Shown here piece by piece: positions 47,474 to 59,400 of a stretch of DNA of 64,000 nt (position 1 is its first letter; each line of letters starts with the position of its first letter). The stretch covers positions 46,216,626 through 46,280,625 of the forward strand of contig OY294044.1 of assembly GCA_958510825.1 (NCBI GenBank), given 5' to 3'. The position numbers were made by a program, and so were the translations under genes. This DNA comes from Brachypterus glaber. Taxonomy: Eukaryota > Arthropoda > Insecta > Coleoptera > Kateretidae. The notes under the pieces were generated by a model that saw nothing but the letters and a program-made list of their open reading frames with translations, made no database searches and was not told the DNA's origin.

Positions 47474-50400
47474 TATAAATTACGTTGCAACCTTGCCGTA
47501 AGAAGTTTTTAAAAAAGTTATTTTAAAGTTTTTGAAGTATTTTATTGAATTACAAATTTATTAAATAATGTTAATAGTTTACAATATAATTACAGATTGA
47601 TTGAAAGAAAGTAAAAAGCTACATAGGTAAACTATGCTGACAAAACAATATACATTTTATTATATAAACAATAAGTTGCTGAGTAGCATGACTCCGGTCA
47701 TGTAACTCCTCCCTCCTCAAAATGAAGCATCCCCTGGGAGGTTGAAGTTCTGTCCGGGGGGGAGTGGTTGGAGTTCCTCTTCCTGTGGAATGGGTTCTCT
47801 CTTTCTCTCCTGGATTCGGCTTCTGATGAATTTCAGTCCAAAATATGTTAACGCCATGACGATTACCACGTAGAGGGAAATGGTCATGATGCTTGGGGTG
47901 AAAATATCTTGTTGATTTTTCTCCATTGGTATAACTGCATTTTCCGAAATTTCGTTTAATTTCAGCGTTTTTAGGTTTATTTTTAAATTTTGTATTTGTC
48001 GGTCCTCTATGGCAACGTTTAAATTATTTACGAGGGCAGGCTTTCCAGATGATTTTTCTTCGAAAAATAGCTTGTTTTGTTTGAAAAAAATTTCGCAGTT
48101 TTCTTCTTTTATGAGGTAAATTCCTTGAAGTGACTTAGTTTCGCTTTCTTCGTTGCATTTAATGTGGAGTTTTTCTTCGTTGGGAAATACTCCGAGAAAC
48201 TGGTTAATTTCCGGGATGACTTCCATATAGTTTTCGGTAATATCAAGTTTTATATACGAGCATGAGTGTGAGTTTTCCTGTAGGATAATATTCTTCTCAC
48301 AAGTCACATCCTGACTTGCTTGCAAATAGTTTGCGCATTGAAACCTTTTGCCCTTTTTACAAATGTCATTCAATGGTACAAATCCATTTTCTTTTGACTT
48401 TAATAAATATTTAGTTTTTGGAATTATCGTCACAAACTCTGATTTGAACAGGGTAGGGATGGGTGTGAGGCGGTATAATTCAAAATCTGTTTCGTAATTT
48501 ATTGGGAGGGATAGAAAATATGTTATTCTTGTAGGCTCAATTTGACAGTTAATTTGAATAAGGTTTTCAAGTTCTAAAATGTTTTCGTATTTTAACTCCA
48601 CTGGGAGTTGGTTTTTATAGTGTTCGGCGATTTTTCTAATTTCGAGGAATAATTCATCTGTTTTTATTATGCTAGGGTGCATTGTTTTCAACTTACGAAA
48701 TGTTATCGAGTTTTCGATATCCGTTAGAATATTTAAAATTGTATTATATATAATTAAAATTTGGTTATGGAGGTCTTGTGCAAACAACATAAAAATTTGG
48801 CTCTGAACTTTTTCGTTCATGAAGTTATTTAATTGTAAAATTTTATTTTTTAAAATATTTTCATTATGCTGTATTTCTTGTAGAGTATCATTAAAATTTT
48901 GTATTAGTTTTTGATTAATAGAGTATTGTTGATTTAATTGCGACTGAAAGTTATCGTTTTTCTTGCGAATGTCGGTTAAAATTTTGTATATTTTTTCACC
49001 GTTATTTGCATCTAAATTACCTGTAATGCCCTTAATTATGGTTCCAAAACCATTAATAAGTCCCCGTTTGTTTCTTGTGAAACTTTCATTATACCCTAAA
49101 TTAATATGATTAATTTTTTCATAAATTTTTCCCTGTGTATAGTTAATAATTTTCTTATAATTATCTAATTCTCTACTATAAAAAGTTTTGTTAATCTTAA
49201 GTAAATCTAGCCTATTATATTCTAAGTTAAGTTTTTCGAATTGGTCGAAAAGTGGTTGTAATTCGTAGTAGTGGACAAAAGTATGGTCCGTGCGCTGCAA
49301 TTTTGCAGGGCCCAAATTTATAGGAAGGATACCAAGGTTTGTTGTTATGTTGCGGATGTCCGCTGCTCGTCCGCATGTGAGCAACCTGGAATAGATAAAT
49401 CTTGTTGAGTTTTTGAGTTACTGTTTTTTCTAGGGCGTTTTATATTCGAAAGGTGGATTTTATCTATGGTATTAAAATGGGTTGGGTCAATTTTTGCGGT
49501 TTTTAATTTCCAGTTTATATTTTTGATTTTTTCTTTTTTGAATTTATTTTTGGTTTTTGACTGTTTTTGTTTATTTTTAACGAATACTTTTTCGGGTATA
49601 TTTTTGGGAATTTCTTCACGTTTTTCATTTAATTTGTTAATAATTTTTTCTTTCGTCTTTTGTGCGTCTTTGTTTATTTTTTGATATAAAATTTTGGTTT
49701 CTTCTTTATGGTTAAATATATAGTTATTCATTAATTGTTTGTTCAATTCTAAGTTAAAGGGTGAATCTGTGCCTAAGTGTCCTGTGATTATTTCTGAAGG
49801 TTTTAATTTTGTAGTGCTATGTATTGTATTATTATAGGCCAATATTGCATAATTTATTTTTATCTCAATTGGCTCGCTCTTAAAAATATCTTGGTTATTA
49901 AGTAACCTTATGTGCTCGATTAGGGTGGAGTGAAATCTTTCTACTGGAGAATTTGAATCGGGGTGTTGCGAGCTTATGAAGTGGATTTTGATTTTATGGA
50001 GTTCTAGTAACTCTTTTAACACACCGCTATTAAACTCACCACCATTGTCCGATACGATTTGTTCGGGGATGGAATGGTGCGTAAAATATTTTATGAGATT
50101 ATTTACTACTTCTATGCTTGAAGCAGCACTTAGTTTATACGCTTGACTATATTTTGAGAAAGTGTCAATTATTGTAAGAAATTTAGATTTTTCTAGGGTG
50201 ATACTGTCCATGTGTAAAATTTGGAATGGTCTAGTCGCTGTCGGTGTCAAGTTAAATTTTAATTTTAGGGGGTTTCTGTCGTATTTCGTAAGTTGGCAAA
50301 TTTCACAGTTATTTATGTACGTTTGAATCACACGACGTTGATTCGGAAAATAGTACGACTCTTTTATACGTTTTTCGGTTTCTTCGATTCCCCGGTGGTT

Positions 50401-53400
50401 CGTTTTTCCCTCGTGAAAATTTTTTATAATTTCTTTTATTTCTACCTCCCCTATTACGTCTGTAAGGTATTTTGTACACCTAATTAAATTTATTTGTCCA
50501 TTTTTAAAATATGTTTGTAATACAGCACAAAATTGTTCATAGATTGGATCCTCGAAAAATACATAATACTTAATTTTTGGGGCGATATATTCTTTCATAA
50601 CTTTTATTACATCTTGTTCAAAATTATTTTTTGACAATTGAACAAGCATTCTTTGTTTTGATTTATAGAGGATAACGATTGAGGGGGTTGCAGGGGCAAA
50701 TTCTACTAGTGAAAGAATAATTTGGTTTTTGCCATAATTGACTGGACAAGTTACTATTGGGACACCAATAATTGGGTTTTCCGCGTTAGAGTGTACTGTA
50801 TTAAGATCGGTTTCTGTAGGTTGTTCCGCTTGCTTAATATTTTCTTCCCGCTCTAAGTCGTCAAGGTCCCCTGTTTCAACAATTATAGACATATTGTCTG
50901 AGTCTTTATTCGCGGAAAAGCTGTCGTTAAACTTTTGCATATAATCTAATAAGGGTTCATTAATATTGTCTGTAATGTCAGGTTCGTCATTTGTCAACTC
51001 TTTGCAGAATTCTTCTATAAAGCTGGAAATAGCACTTTTATTATTTTCGTGATTAGTGACGTTAATTTCAACTTTTTGGGGTGGGTCAATATTGTAAATA
51101 AGTATTTTAATTTTAGAGTTTTGAAATATAATTTTAATTAAATTAAGTATGATATCCCATTTTAGGTTATCTAGGCCGGATCCAATTTTTGGCATAGCTA
51201 CAGTAAAATCTTGTAGCTCTAAACATAATCTTTTGAGGCTTATCAAGGCGGAAATTATAGTAGTGTAGGTGGGTTTGTCCCTAAATATCTTTTTGGTAAT
51301 TAAATAATAAATATTTCTTGTAGGAAGTTTTAAATATGCAACTTCACCTACAGGTTTGTTTTGTGCTTTTAGTGTGTTTACGCAATTAAATTTTTCCCTG
51401 AAATTACGGGCGATTCCTTTTTTCATGCTAAAACACTGGGAGACGCAATGAGCAAGAGATATATTCTCGTCACAATTAAATAGATCATTGTCGATTATTT
51501 TTACATTATTATTAATTATATTAAGGTTATTATAAATTATTTGACGAAGAGTTTCATTTTTATAAACGGCGTCTGAAAGTTCATTTAAATTTATTTCGTA
51601 CGTGGGAATAGATTCGCATATATTGTCATCGTAATCTGATACTTCCTTATCTTTGAAACTCGTACGTGACTTTATGTTATTTTGTAGAGGTGAATTACTT
51701 ATAGTATTTTTATTGTAATTATTACTTAAAACTTGGGCATAAGTTAAGTCAGTGGCGTTACCGATTTTTTTTATTTGGGGGGGTTCGTTTGTGGGGTTTT
51801 GTAGTTGGTCGGGATTTTTGGGAATATCGGTTTCTGGGTTTATTACGATGCGTGACAAGGCATCTGCGTTACTATTAAGGACACCTTTTTTATAAATAAT
51901 TTCATAATCATATTCTTCTAAGTACAACCGCCACCTACATAATTTGGAATTAGGTTCTTTAAGGGAGAACAACCACTGCAAGGGTTTATGGTCAGATACT
52001 ATTGTAAATTTTCGGCCATAAAGGTAGGGCCTAAAGTATTTAACAGCCCAAACGATTGCTAGGAGTTCCCTTTCGATAGTACTTAGATTACATTCTGATT
52101 CGTTAAGGGTGCGACTTGCGTAAGCTACTGGCAAATCAGAGCCTATTTTCCCTTGTGACAACACCGAACCTAAAGCAAAACTAGAAGAGTCGCAAGTTAG
52201 AATGAAGGGTTGATTAAAATCTGGATACTGCAGTATGGGTTGGTTAATCAACAAATTTTTACAATGGTTAAAACATTTTACATACTCGGGGTCCTTAATA
52301 TTAATTTTATGATTCTTTTTCAGACAGATAGTCATAGGTTTAGTTATTTTCGCAAAATCTTTTATGAATTTGCGGTAATAACCCAATAGTCCCAAAAAAG
52401 CCTTAATTTGTCGTGTAGTTTTAGGAATAGGATAGTTTTGAACAGCTTTAATTTTTTCAGGATTCGGTTTTACGCCCTGGGGTGTCACTATATGACCTAA
52501 AAACGCTACTTCTTTTTGCAAAAATTCGCATTTATCGACTTGTAATTTAAGATTAGCAGATCGCAATCTATCAAAAATCTCTTTGAGATTGTTTATATGT
52601 TCTTGTAAACTTGTACTAAAACAAATGATATCATCAAGAAATACGCAGCATTTTTTATTTAATATACCCCTTAACAGGTTGTCCATGACCCTCTGGAATG
52701 TGGCTGGGGCCGTTTTAAGGCCAAAGGGCATGCGCAGGAATTCATAGTGACCATTTTCTGTGCTGAAAGCAGTTTTTTGAATATCCTCCCTAGCCATTTC
52801 CAGCTGGTGATAACCACTGGCTAAATCCATTGTACTAAAGTATAAACAACGTCCCAACTTGTCCAATAAGTCCGTAATGTTCGGCAATGGGTATCGGTCA
52901 TCAATAGTTTTTTCATTTAATTTACGATAGTCAACTACTATGCGCCATTTGCGTTCAGCAAAAGGGGCACTTTTCTTGGGGACCACCCAAATTGGCGAAC
53001 TCCACGGGCTATAAGAGGGTCTTATGATTTTTTGTTGTAACATTTTTTTAATTTGTTTATCTACCTCTTGTTTATGGACATTTGGAAAACGATAGGACTT
53101 TGTGTACACTGGTATTTCGTCTTTAGTAACTATTTTATGTTTAATTTTATGCGTAAAAGTTAAGGGTTTTCCTTCTGAATGAAAAATATCAGAGTACTCA
53201 TTTAAAAGATTTAAAATTGCTTGTTTTTCCTCTGCATTCATATGATTTATTTTAATTTTAGACAGATCAATTGGCGAGTTATCGCAATATGTATTAATAT
53301 TATTAAAATTAGAAGCTGTGTGGTGTTCGTATTCGTCGAACATTTGCACAGTTATTGGGTATATTTTAGCAGAAATGTCCCTATCTGTAGGGTTAACAAT

Positions 53401-56400
53401 ACTACAATAAGTAGAAAAATCTTTTACACTGGCTACGCTTTCTATTATTTCTAGATCACCAGCTTTCATGTGAGGAATTATTACGTCACCATTTTTAACA
53501 TTTTTAATATTTATTTTAATAATTTGTTCTGTCTTGGCAGGGACGACTATGCTGTCGGCCCCACTAGATAACTCAAGGTAGTGAATTTTGATTCTGCGGG
53601 ATGGTGTAATTAATACATCATTATGCAGGTCGACAATCGCGTTTAATTTCTTTAGGTTATCTAAGCCTAGTAGACAGTCAAATTGTTTATGAAAGTTGAA
53701 CATATGAAATTTAAGATTAATGTTATTTTTAAACAATTTGCCACACGGGATCTTTGTACTATACTTTTCCAAGGAAGTACCGTGTGCACTAGATATTAAA
53801 AATGGGTCATGTATAATATTCCTAGAAAAAAATTTATTTGCGATGTCATGTTTAACAAACGACTTTGTGCTACCACTATCTAATAAAACTTTTAAATTTA
53901 AATCTGGGTAAATTATATAGCACAATTGACTTTTTTCGTTTGTTAAACTCATGATATCTATTTTTCCGAGGCTCAATTCTCTAAAAAAGATGAGTCATCT
54001 TGATTTTTATTTAAATTTTCCTCCGGAAACTCTACTTTCGGCGCATTATGCAAGTTGAAAACCTCTTCTATTTGAAAATTAGGCGTTCTAATTTGATTAT
54101 TTGAATTATTTCTATTATTAAAATTTTGCCTAGCATGGGACATATTAGTGTTTCGCGTAGAAACACTCATTGGAGTTGGTCTCGGTAACCTTACATTAGG
54201 GTTTGGCCTAAACACATCATTTCTGGAGCTAGGCCCTGGCTGATTTTGAAAGTTTGTATTTGTGTTATTATTATTGAAACCATTTGGCCTTGGCTGGAAA
54301 TTTTGTGGGTAATTTGTTAGTTGCAATTGCCTAATATTTGGCAATTGCTGCCTTCCTTGTGTAAAGTTACGATTATTATTAAAGTTTGGCTTTTGTCTAG
54401 GATTTTGGCTATAAGAATTTCTAATTATTTGGTCATTTATTTCTAATTGAAAATCGTTCGTTAGCATATTTAACGCAGAGTTCAGATCTTCTGGATTTTT
54501 GGTTCGCATTAAGGATCCTATTGGGTCTCGGAGGCCCCTCAATAAAACCCTTAAGGCGTATTTTCTTAAGTATGCGGTTAAAGTTCCGACCTCTTGTGCA
54601 TTACCATGATGCACCGTTAAATATGCTATCTGAAGGTTAAGTAGCATAAGTATACTATTGTAAAAATCGAAAACTGACTGTTTGAGCCCTTGCTTTAACT
54701 CTGTCATTTCCAATTGCAAGCTGAAAACGTCGCGTTTATCGCTATATGTATTCTGGAGTGCTAATTTTAAGTCATTCCAGTTATTCAGAATGCAAGAGGA
54801 TATTTTAGTTGCGGCATCGCCCTTTATTTTAGCCAAAATGCTAGACATTAGGTACTCATTCTGAAAGTCCGTCGGGTCATTAAGGTTATAAAATTTATTG
54901 ACTAATTTTTCACATATATCGATGAATCTAGGAAGGAGTTCTGACTCGCCCCTAAATTCAGGGATCATGTTCAAGTAGTCGGCTTTCAGAACGTTAGCCA
55001 TGTTTAAATTTAAATTATTTATTTCGGGAATGGGGTTATTTGTTTCTATTATGGTAAGTTCTAGTTCAGAGTTTGTTTCGGACTCGGAACTGGACTCAGA
55101 ATCGATTAAAGTATTTTGAAAATTGAATCTGCAATCACTAAATGACATAGGTACTTACAGGCAAATGGTCGCTGCTATGATGTCCTTCATCTGTGATGTG
55201 CACTCACACTCGAAGAAAACTTTTTTTTTGTAATTTCTCTTGTTTGGAAACTACCAGGTTCTATCACCAACAAATCGTCGAAACGAATCAATTTTATGCT
55301 AAATTGATTGGTGAAAACTGCCGACTGCGCCAATTACGTTGCAACCTTGCCGTAAGAAGTTTTTAAAAAAGTTATTTTAAAGTTTTTGAAGTATTTTATT
55401 GAATTACAAATTTATTAAATAATGTTAATAGTTTACAATATAATTACAGATTGATTGAAAGAAAGTAAAAAGCTACATAGGTAAACTATGCTGACAAAAC
55501 AATATACATTTTATTATATAAACAATAAGTTGCTGAGTAGCATGACTCCGGTCATGTAACTTATATAGTTATAGTTTATTTATTATTCCTATTTACAAAA
55601 AGGTTTACAATAATACAGATAGAGAGCTCCTAAGACAAAGGGTTAAATGTACCTTTAGTTTATATTATACTGAAAATTTTGTGATAAATGGTAAGACGAT
55701 TTTTTTTTCGTTTCTCTTTTGATGCCCATGTTGTTTTGGATTCATGTCTTTCACAAGTTTTCTTTGTCTCTTTTCCTTTTTTTTTGTTGGTAATTTTTTC
55801 TTTTTCATTCATTTTGGAGTGTTACGCCCATGTTAATGGTATAGGGAAATAGCGTTACAGGGGGGGGGGGGTGGAGGTCCAAAAGGATCCAAATTTGCGT
55901 TACGTAATACTTGAACGTCCCTTAGTTTATTTTTTACAGCTCGACAAACTCCAAATATGGCACTTTTTTCATATTTTTCCGATATATTTCATTAATATTT
56001 TTATATAAATATACATACATATGCTTTATAAAAAAATTACATACATCTTTTTTATGTCTGATACCGTTAACCAGACTGTTTTCTCAAGTTTTTTTTAAGC
56101 GATTTAAACAAATTTGATAATAGACCTCCCTTATCCCTGATTTGTTTCAAAACCACACGTTGAGATATACGATGGCCACCATTACCCTAGAGGCTACCAT
56201 TCCCCCCTTTCCCATACATATTAAGTTATCCATTCCTGAAACATGAACTGCATTAAAGATGACCAATATATTGCATATAAATGTATGATACAATATAGTT
56301 TTACCAAATGGTACAATTTAACCAATTACAGAAAGCTGATGGCATTTATATGGGATAGTTCAAGATTAGAATTCGAAGCCGCTCAAGATTGCGAATTGGT

Positions 56401-59400
56401 AACTGCTGGAGAATTATTTGGAAGATCTGGATATGGGATAGGACTTCAAAAAGGATCGCCATGGTCAGACGATGTGACTTTAGCTATACTGGACTTTCAT
56501 GAAAGTAAGAAATTTTGTTTCAAAATGTTAATACGAAATACTATGTCTTTTTACTTTCGAGCGACCTTCGAGAGAAGAATTGTTAAGGCAAAAATTTTTT
56601 TTCCAGATTTTAATGTATTTATACCTTTCAAGGTCTATACATTCCGAAAAAACGATTTTTCGATGTAAGTCCGTCGGTCCGTCCATCCACAGGCCTACAG
56701 GTCATACCGCTTAACAGATCAAAACCAAATTGTAAACTTAAGGTTTTTAGGGGATTGTTTAGGGGGATTTCTTATTAATTCTCTACTCAAACAAGGGTAC
56801 TGACAAAAATCAAAAATTTTAATTTTCTTGAAAATGGCTCTAACGATTTTGCTTAAATTTGTACGATAATAGTAAATTACAAACATAACAATTAATAGTT
56901 TTCCCCAGAAAAAAATTATGAGAGCGGAAAATATTTTTTTGCAATTTTGGCAAAGGCAAATTAAATTTTTTTGCAGGTTACTTTAAATACCCAAATTAAT
57001 TTTTTTTTAAACATTTTTCAAAAATTTTTGTTTTGCTGAAAACGAGAAAATTATATATAAAAAACTTTAAAAAAAATTAAAAAAAATTGATTTTTTTATT
57101 TCCTTTTTGCGAAAAACAAAAATTTTGAAAAAAAGATTTTTTGAAAATTATTTTTCTTATTCAAAAAAAAATCAAAAAAACTTTAAAAGTTTTTCAATTT
57201 TTTTTTTTTTAATTTTTGGTTTAAACTTTCTTTTTGATTGGGGGGATTACATTTAAAATTAGTAGAATTGATCCTTATAATAAACGTATTTTTTCCTGAA
57301 AATGTTACGTTAATCGGAATTTTCTTTAAGCTTTTTTCAACTTTTTTTAAAGTTTAAGCCCCCATAATTTTTTTTGTGGGATTACATTTAAAATAAGTGG
57401 AATTGATCCTTACAATAAAAGTAATTTTTCCTGAAATCTCTTTCAGCTTTTTTCGATTGTTTTAAAAGTTAAATCCCCCATACTTTTTAATTTTTGGGGG
57501 GATTACTTTCAAAATAGGGATCTTCCCCTCGTAGAACTTGATTTTTGCTGAAAATTTTAAACAATCGGACTATTCGTTCTTGAGTTATCGTGTCTTAACA
57601 AAACGTGACATTCAGACAGACGGACAGACGGACAGACGGACAGACGGACAGACGGACAGACGGACAGACGGACAGACGGACAGACGGACAGACGGACAGA
57701 CGGACAGACGGACAGACGGACAGACGGACAGACGGACAGACGGACAGACGGACAGACGGACAGACGGACAGACGGACAGACGGACAGACGGACAGACGGA
57801 CAGACGGACAGACGGACAGACGGACAGACGGACAGACGGACAGAAGGACAGAAGGACAGACGGACAGACGGACAGACGGACAGATGGACAGACGGACAGA
57901 CGGACAGACGGACAGACGGACAGACGGACAGAGGTACCGTAACCCTCCTTTAATACCCACCCGGCACTCGCGCACTTAATCACGGGCACACTCACACTAT
58001 ACTTTTTACAGACGGACAGACGGACAGACGGACAGACGGACAGACGGACAGACGGACAGACGGACAGACGGACAGACGGGCAGACGGACAGACGGACAGA
58101 CGGACAGACAAGAAATTTTTGTCTAGGACGATTTTTGATTTTTTTTTTGAAAATTCGAAACTACCGTATAATATTCTAGCGCAGGAGCTGTGAATAATAT
58201 AATAATAACAAAATAATCGACACCTTAAAGCTTATCCGAACCTTTCTGCTAGAAATTTGGTAAGTGCGATAAAACCAAACCATTTTCATTTTATTTATTT
58301 TGGGTTTTAGGTGGATTTATGGAAAGTTTAGATAACAAGTGGATTCTTCAAGGAAATTTACAACAATGCGAACAGTTTGAAAAAACTCCGAATACTTTGG
58401 GTTTAAAAAATATGGCTGGCGTTTTCATACTAGTCGGAGCGGGTATAGTCGGTGGTATAGGACTTATAGTTATCGAAATGGCATATAAGAAACATCAGAT
58501 TAAGAAACAGAAACGAATGGAGCTAGCTCGACATGCCGCTGACAAATGGAGAGGAGTTGTAGAGGTAAAATTTATTAAACTCTTGGTTTCTTTTTATATT
58601 ATTTCCGAAAAAGTGAGCAAATTGAATTTAAATAAAAATTAAACAATTTGTAAGCTAGACATCTTATACATCTTATAAGATAACACTAAAAAGTGACTTT
58701 TCCCTTACCTGAATTATTTGGTTGGAGAAACCAGATCAATAATTACACAGGCACACAAAATTAAAAAAAGTTGTCTGTTCTTTTACAACCACATACGTAC
58801 CCTTATGTATTTTTCAGGCTGAATCCGAATCCGAGGTCAGAATTGACCCATCACCCAAGGATTTTGATATAACCTGAAAAAATTGCCAAAATTGACCTCG
58901 AATTGACCTTATTAAGAGTTTATTAATGATTGAAACGATCAAACTATGCTATTTATAAGTTTTTAGGGGCGCTGAAACCGAATCTGCACTCAAATTGACC
59001 AAACATGTCGAGGTTTCCAACCACAAAAAATAACTCAAAATAACCTAATTTTAGATAAATTAAAATCATGCTATCTATACGTATTTTGGGGCGCTAAAAC
59101 CAAATTCGGGGTCTGAATCGGCCGATCACCCTAGAATTTTGAATGCGAGGCAAAAAAAAACACGTGAAAACCGGTCAGAATAGGGTTTAAAAAGAAAATT
59201 GAAGATTTTTAAAGTGCCATACATGATTTTTATGTATAATTTTCGGCTAAATCCGAATCCGCAAATTGGTATATCAGTTAAAATGCGGCTGAAAATCACC
59301 CAGCAAACATTGGTTCGTTGGCCGCCAGTTGGCCAAACATTGAAGTGCCAATGTTTCCTACATTGGGCCAATGTTGGTAAACCTACATTGGGCCTACATA

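Follow-up and report, generated by a model that had tools for sequence, protein, structure and literature searches.

Macrodomains encoded by RNA viruses are a standard answer to host defences based on PARPs and ADP-ribosylation. Among cellular macrodomains, TARG1 takes ADP-ribose off glutamate and aspartate and, like DarG, off thymidine in DNA; K84 is its catalytic residue, and the K84A mutant fails to rescue from DarT (PMC8501950). In fish, macro-domain open reading frames (ORFs) have been described in epsilon-like endogenous retroviruses (Basta et al. 2009, through its citation by PMC4977317). The element considered here lies in a 64,000-nucleotide stretch of the genome of the beetle Brachypterus glaber (contig OY294044.1, positions 46,216,626 to 46,280,625), hereafter the window, within which positions are counted. 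By its layout, which includes an env-like gene, it belongs with the errantivirus-like Ty3/gypsy elements. Its Pol, compared only with relatives found by search, contains a complete TARG1-type macrodomain.

Human TARG1 is the best match of the macrodomain piece among PDB sequences (E 1.6e-29), which rules out a chance match of motifs. The next solved macrodomain is DarG 5m3i (E 0.00041); a pentatricopeptide entry ranks between the two (E 8.3e-7), without any of its stretches passing alone. The match reaches E 1.4e-56 with a profile built from 13 sequences. The model has the macro fold over the full length of the domain (Foldseek TM 0.95), and in the structural alignment with TARG1 its residues 1..140 pair with residues 13..152 of chain 4j5r_A, K72 and D113 of the piece falling on residues 84 and 125 (the numbering of entry 4j5s is 3 higher). 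A sequence-only reading of the window had proposed a TARG1/DarG-like macrodomain with SLAHC, MKKGIA, LITKK and IGSGLD in the right order and a Lys/Asp pair 41 residues apart, like K84 and D125 of TARG1. The motifs, their order and the spacing of the pair are borne out in a 141-residue piece on the minus strand, which that reading had not given. The TARG1 part of its name stands, whereas DarG membership is ruled out, since the NCBIfam model NF048014 has a cut-off of 250 bits and scores the piece at 34.6. The check that it had suggested, by structure or Pfam, likewise held for the TARG1 fold and failed for Pfam Macro (PF01661), which scores the piece at 19.2 bits, below the 22-bit cut-off. D113 presumably plays the role that D125, a residue absent from the account of TARG1 in PMC8501950, has in TARG1. 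The Lys/Asp pair is kept in 129/129 proteins and in 27/27 loci, a count that takes in loci up to L029, with L030-L039 outside it.

The macrodomain is carried by an element at window positions 47478-55561 on the minus strand, with two long terminal repeats (LTRs) and three large open frames: gag-like, pol and env-like (Table 1). Scanned as separate pieces with Pfam, pol gives RVP_2, RVT_1, RT_RNaseH, H2C2 and rve, all above their cut-offs and in the usual Ty3/gypsy order. RNase H thus lies upstream of the macrodomain and the H2C2/rve integrase downstream, where the extra domain had been predicted. The errantivirus context, also predicted, was recovered as an LTR-gag-pol-env-LTR layout with pol in the order protease, reverse transcriptase, RNase H, integrase, although the gag-like frame matches Retrotrans_gag only weakly (E 0.022, below the cut-off). 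The env-like frame, for which a Pfam scan returned no family above the cut-off, is identified only by its place in the layout, by the motif RNKR at residue 104, behind which comes a hydrophobic stretch rich in glycine, and by a transmembrane-like segment around residue 494. The sequence immediately behind the 5' LTR, GGCGCAGTCGG, is one that we take to resemble errantivirus primer sites. That the element is a pseudogene or relic is ruled out by its open frames and identical LTRs.

The junction is best seen against sister family B, which shares 74% integrase identity with the window. There, locus L011 reads ADALSRVEIN unbroken, the end of RNase H running straight into VEIN, while the window carries about 259 additional residues, made up of a linker of about 114, the 141 of the macrodomain and about 4 more. 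At the sequence level, the macrodomain insertion is a clean one. The spacer domain that follows it, common to the window, families B and C, and a related protein (P0005), is possibly a degenerate macro-like fold.

Table 1. Features of the macrodomain-bearing element in the window
Feature	Position	Strand	Description
5' LTR	55332..55561	-	230 bp, AGTTAC...TAATT; 230/230 positions identical to 3' LTR
Primer-binding-site-like sequence	55318..55331	-	GGCGCAGTCGG
Gag-like frame	53973..55148	-	open frame, 391 residues
Pol frame	49345..53976	-	open frame, 1543 residues; protease, reverse transcriptase, RNase H, macrodomain, spacer, integrase
RNase H piece	51841..52200	-	RT_RNaseH E 7.8e-34
Insert relative to family B	51073..51849	-	between ADALSR and VEIN, from alignment with L011; edges unsure by a few residues
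TARG1-type macrodomain	51085..51507	-	141 residues, open, within the pol frame
K72 codon (piece numbering)	51292..51294	-	equivalent of TARG1 K84 by structural alignment
D113 codon (piece numbering)	51169..51171	-	equivalent of TARG1 D125 by structural alignment
Spacer domain	50431..50805	-	between macrodomain and integrase
Integrase piece (H2C2 and core)	49900..50430	-	Pfam matches from piece 49345-50400
Env-like frame	47717..49384	-	555 residues
3' LTR	47478..47707	-	230 bp

Related elements occur in the same genome. A scan of its 648 Mb with the Pfam Macro model gave 38 places, two of which look like host genes (MACROD and GDAP2 type). The remaining 36, a list that does not include the window's own copy, score 28.9-35.3 bits, above the cut-off, and were sorted by macrodomain into family B (15), family C (20, with L036 and L037 assigned at only 85% and 71% identity) and family D (1). 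The macrodomain lies behind the integrase in all 31 loci where an integrase was seen. In 10 of 26 such loci, a single frame stays open from the border of the stretch across both integrase and macrodomain, which makes the domain a C-terminal extension of Pol in those ten; the L017 stretch begins at the start of the match, and the upstream part is not visible there. Families B and C share the macrodomain start IENPVYII. In family D, the element is broken and the macrodomain stands directly behind RNase H. This arrangement is that of locus L028 (G000:C603:53850-57432), in which an integrase-like frame of another lineage, recognised by eye only, follows farther on, after intervening sequence.

A search with a Pol piece returned nine proteins, among them six Pol proteins of retroelements that include an integrase. 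Five of the six carry the macrodomain between RNase H and integrase (P0004 from Leptinotarsa, P0005, P0006 from Athalia, P0008 and P0009), so that the insert does recur in other Pol proteins, a point that the sequence-only reading had proposed to check. In P0003, it follows the integrase and a chromodomain and precedes a rhabdovirus-glycoprotein-like segment (Pfam E 0.0019, below the cut-off). The other three are P0007, a free OARD1-like protein counted as non-element, and P0010 and P0011, which have no integrase match. Identity to the window among the three relatives with a reverse transcriptase is 43% for P0004, 54% for P0009 and 67% for P0005; the integrase of P0005 is 56% identical to that of the window, more distant than family B, yet its macrodomain occupies the window's slot.

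Some of these records have features of their own. The P0004 record bears the name tropomodulin and includes a macrodomain-bearing Ty3/gypsy Pol as well, a combination that is probably a gene-model artefact and possibly a real exon fusion. P0006 has, at residues ~389-518 behind its macrodomain, a second, diverged, weakly macro-like segment in which the Lys and Asp positions align. In P0010 (Daktulosphaira LOC126907216), a predicted protein for which a Pfam scan returned no family, a TARG1-type macrodomain adjoins stretches that read as aspartyl-protease-like and OTU-like (DGNCGIYSL). In the window, a long array of 8-base repeats lies close to the element, at 57535-57995.

The integrase and the macrodomain give conflicting trees. 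The integrase tree joins the window with family B (96/96) and rejects B with C (p-AU 0.007), while the macrodomain tree joins B with C (93/93, not starred) and rejects the window with B (p-AU 0.010), p-values that are not blind, because the groups were named after the distances had been seen. The macrodomain of the window is 55-58% identical to those of B, C and D, and B is 66% identical to C. The two trees nevertheless agree in direction, and the macrodomain has accordingly had its own history, having been moved, swapped or gained more than once. A larger macrodomain tree of 42 rows holds ten element-borne domains and 32 other TARG1-type proteins; it leaves out L009, P0010, P0011, P0064, P0072, P0079 and P0103 of an earlier 49-row tree. 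From 119 further proteins, the best of 1006 matches, 34 were hand-picked for the 49-row tree and 30 for the 42-row tree. A single group of the ten element-borne domains is not rejected (p-AU 0.535), and five element domains, that of the window among them, make up a starred set (95/89). The number of changes is 4 on the free tree and averages 9 with shuffled labels. These trees permit a single capture with later swaps without showing it, and a few captures are as likely. It could also be that the handling of ADP-ribose is an ancient and repeated activity of these elements, that a TARG1 lineage borne by retroelements recombined between Ty3/gypsy families into two alternative Pol junctions, and that the RNase H-integrase spacer is an eroded macrodomain, so that the Pol of the window has a fresh macrodomain beside the relic of an earlier one; we regard this as doubtful and hold it lower because the ten domains form one group in 0/200 bootstrap trees (range 2-4 changes).

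The reading that we favour, and consider reasonably probable, is that the TARG1-type domain in the Pol of this errantivirus-like element is an active ADP-ribosyl hydrolase, packaged and clearing host-placed ADP-ribose from element proteins or complementary DNA (cDNA). It builds on the observed fold, sub-type, Lys/Asp pair, in-frame position and recurrence, together with an excess of synonymous change: between the four families of the genome, one copy each, the macrodomain has a nonsynonymous divergence (dN) of 0.23-0.40, against a synonymous divergence (dS) of 1.2-2.8 for four of the pairs and saturation for the other two, which shows that the protein is constrained. The macrodomain would be made as part of Gag-Pol and packaged in the particle together with reverse transcriptase and integrase, a carriage that would place it well to clear element proteins or cDNA. 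Host transferases would put ADP-ribose on element proteins, at Asp/Glu sites, or on element cDNA, and the macrodomain would strip it off before or during integration. Enzymatic activity, packaging, substrate and benefit to the element are what we infer here. An ADP-ribosylation conflict around element replication, as first proposed from the sequence, is supported. Several points nonetheless weigh against this reading: dS lies too near saturation for exact ratios, the position of the macrodomain in Pol varies, so that it need not be bound closely to any single step of replication, and the pocket would also be kept if ADP-ribose were read without being hydrolysed.

The main rival takes up this last point and makes the domain a reader rather than an eraser, which would bind ADP-ribosylated chromatin or repair proteins and steer the pre-integration complex, a role ascribed to the chromodomain of chromoviruses. 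Such a function would suit the location of the macrodomain, before the integrase in the window and after it in families B and C, and also that in P0003, where a chromodomain at the integrase C-terminus precedes it. However, a Lys/Asp pair present in every one of the 129 proteins and 27 loci exceeds the expected need of binding alone, and we consider a reader unlikely. More improbable still is an action outside the element's own replication, either damping cellular ADP-ribosylation signalling, with effects on other parasites, or processing NAD metabolites such as O-acetyl-ADP-ribose; TARG1-type domains are found by structure in other viruses too, but here the domain is part of Pol and not a free protein in the window, in 6/9 of the proteins returned by the search and in the ten unbroken-frame loci. 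Least probable of all is that the domain came along as a passenger, a host exon that was captured and by chance stayed on in Pol as a spacer without a role: retroelements do capture genes, and a stop falls within the aligned macrodomain in 6/36 loci, but the domain is present in four families of this genome as well as in six other Pol proteins, sits at junctions of two kinds, and has its Lys/Asp pair retained and its divergence mainly synonymous. The substitution pattern already disfavours this explanation.

That related elements also carry the macrodomain hints at a conflict over ADP-ribosylation in the element life cycle. Its presence in the Pol of several families, at two junctions and with Lys and Asp kept, suggests that in arthropods ADP-ribosylation also acts on reverse-transcribing elements, by restricting them or by modifying their cDNA, and this becomes directly testable through one small domain. 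Because TARG1 acts on DNA adducts (PMC8501950), modification of the reverse transcript is an unusual, concrete possibility.

Compared with known systems, the window domain is closest to human TARG1/OARD1 (C6orf130; 4j5r/4j5s), with which it shares the whole fold, 42% identity and Lys84/Asp125 in register; however, TARG1 is a free cellular protein, while the window domain is internal to a retroelement Pol. Identity to the DarG antitoxin macrodomain (5m3i, 5m31, 5m3e, 7omu) is only 19-25%. The macrodomains of alphaviruses and coronaviruses share the macro fold, and those of alphaviruses are ruled out as nearest kin by an identity of 13-15%. The structure search also found TARG1-type domains in Kadipiro virus VP8 (foremost, 45% identity), a Frankliniella flavi-like protein and several virga-like proteins. 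In some lentiviruses, a dUTPase sits between RNase H and integrase, likewise an accessory enzyme in the same Pol slot, but of unrelated fold and chemistry. A macrodomain in the Pol of an errantivirus or other Ty3/gypsy element is not described among the literature hits listed, from a library with few subscription papers. The combination is already present in automatic annotation, as Pfam labels computed beforehand for P0003 and P0005. The fish epsilon-like endogenous retroviruses, as described in PMC4977317, are likewise retroelements with a macro-domain gene, carried there as an additional ORF and here inside an errantivirus-like Pol.
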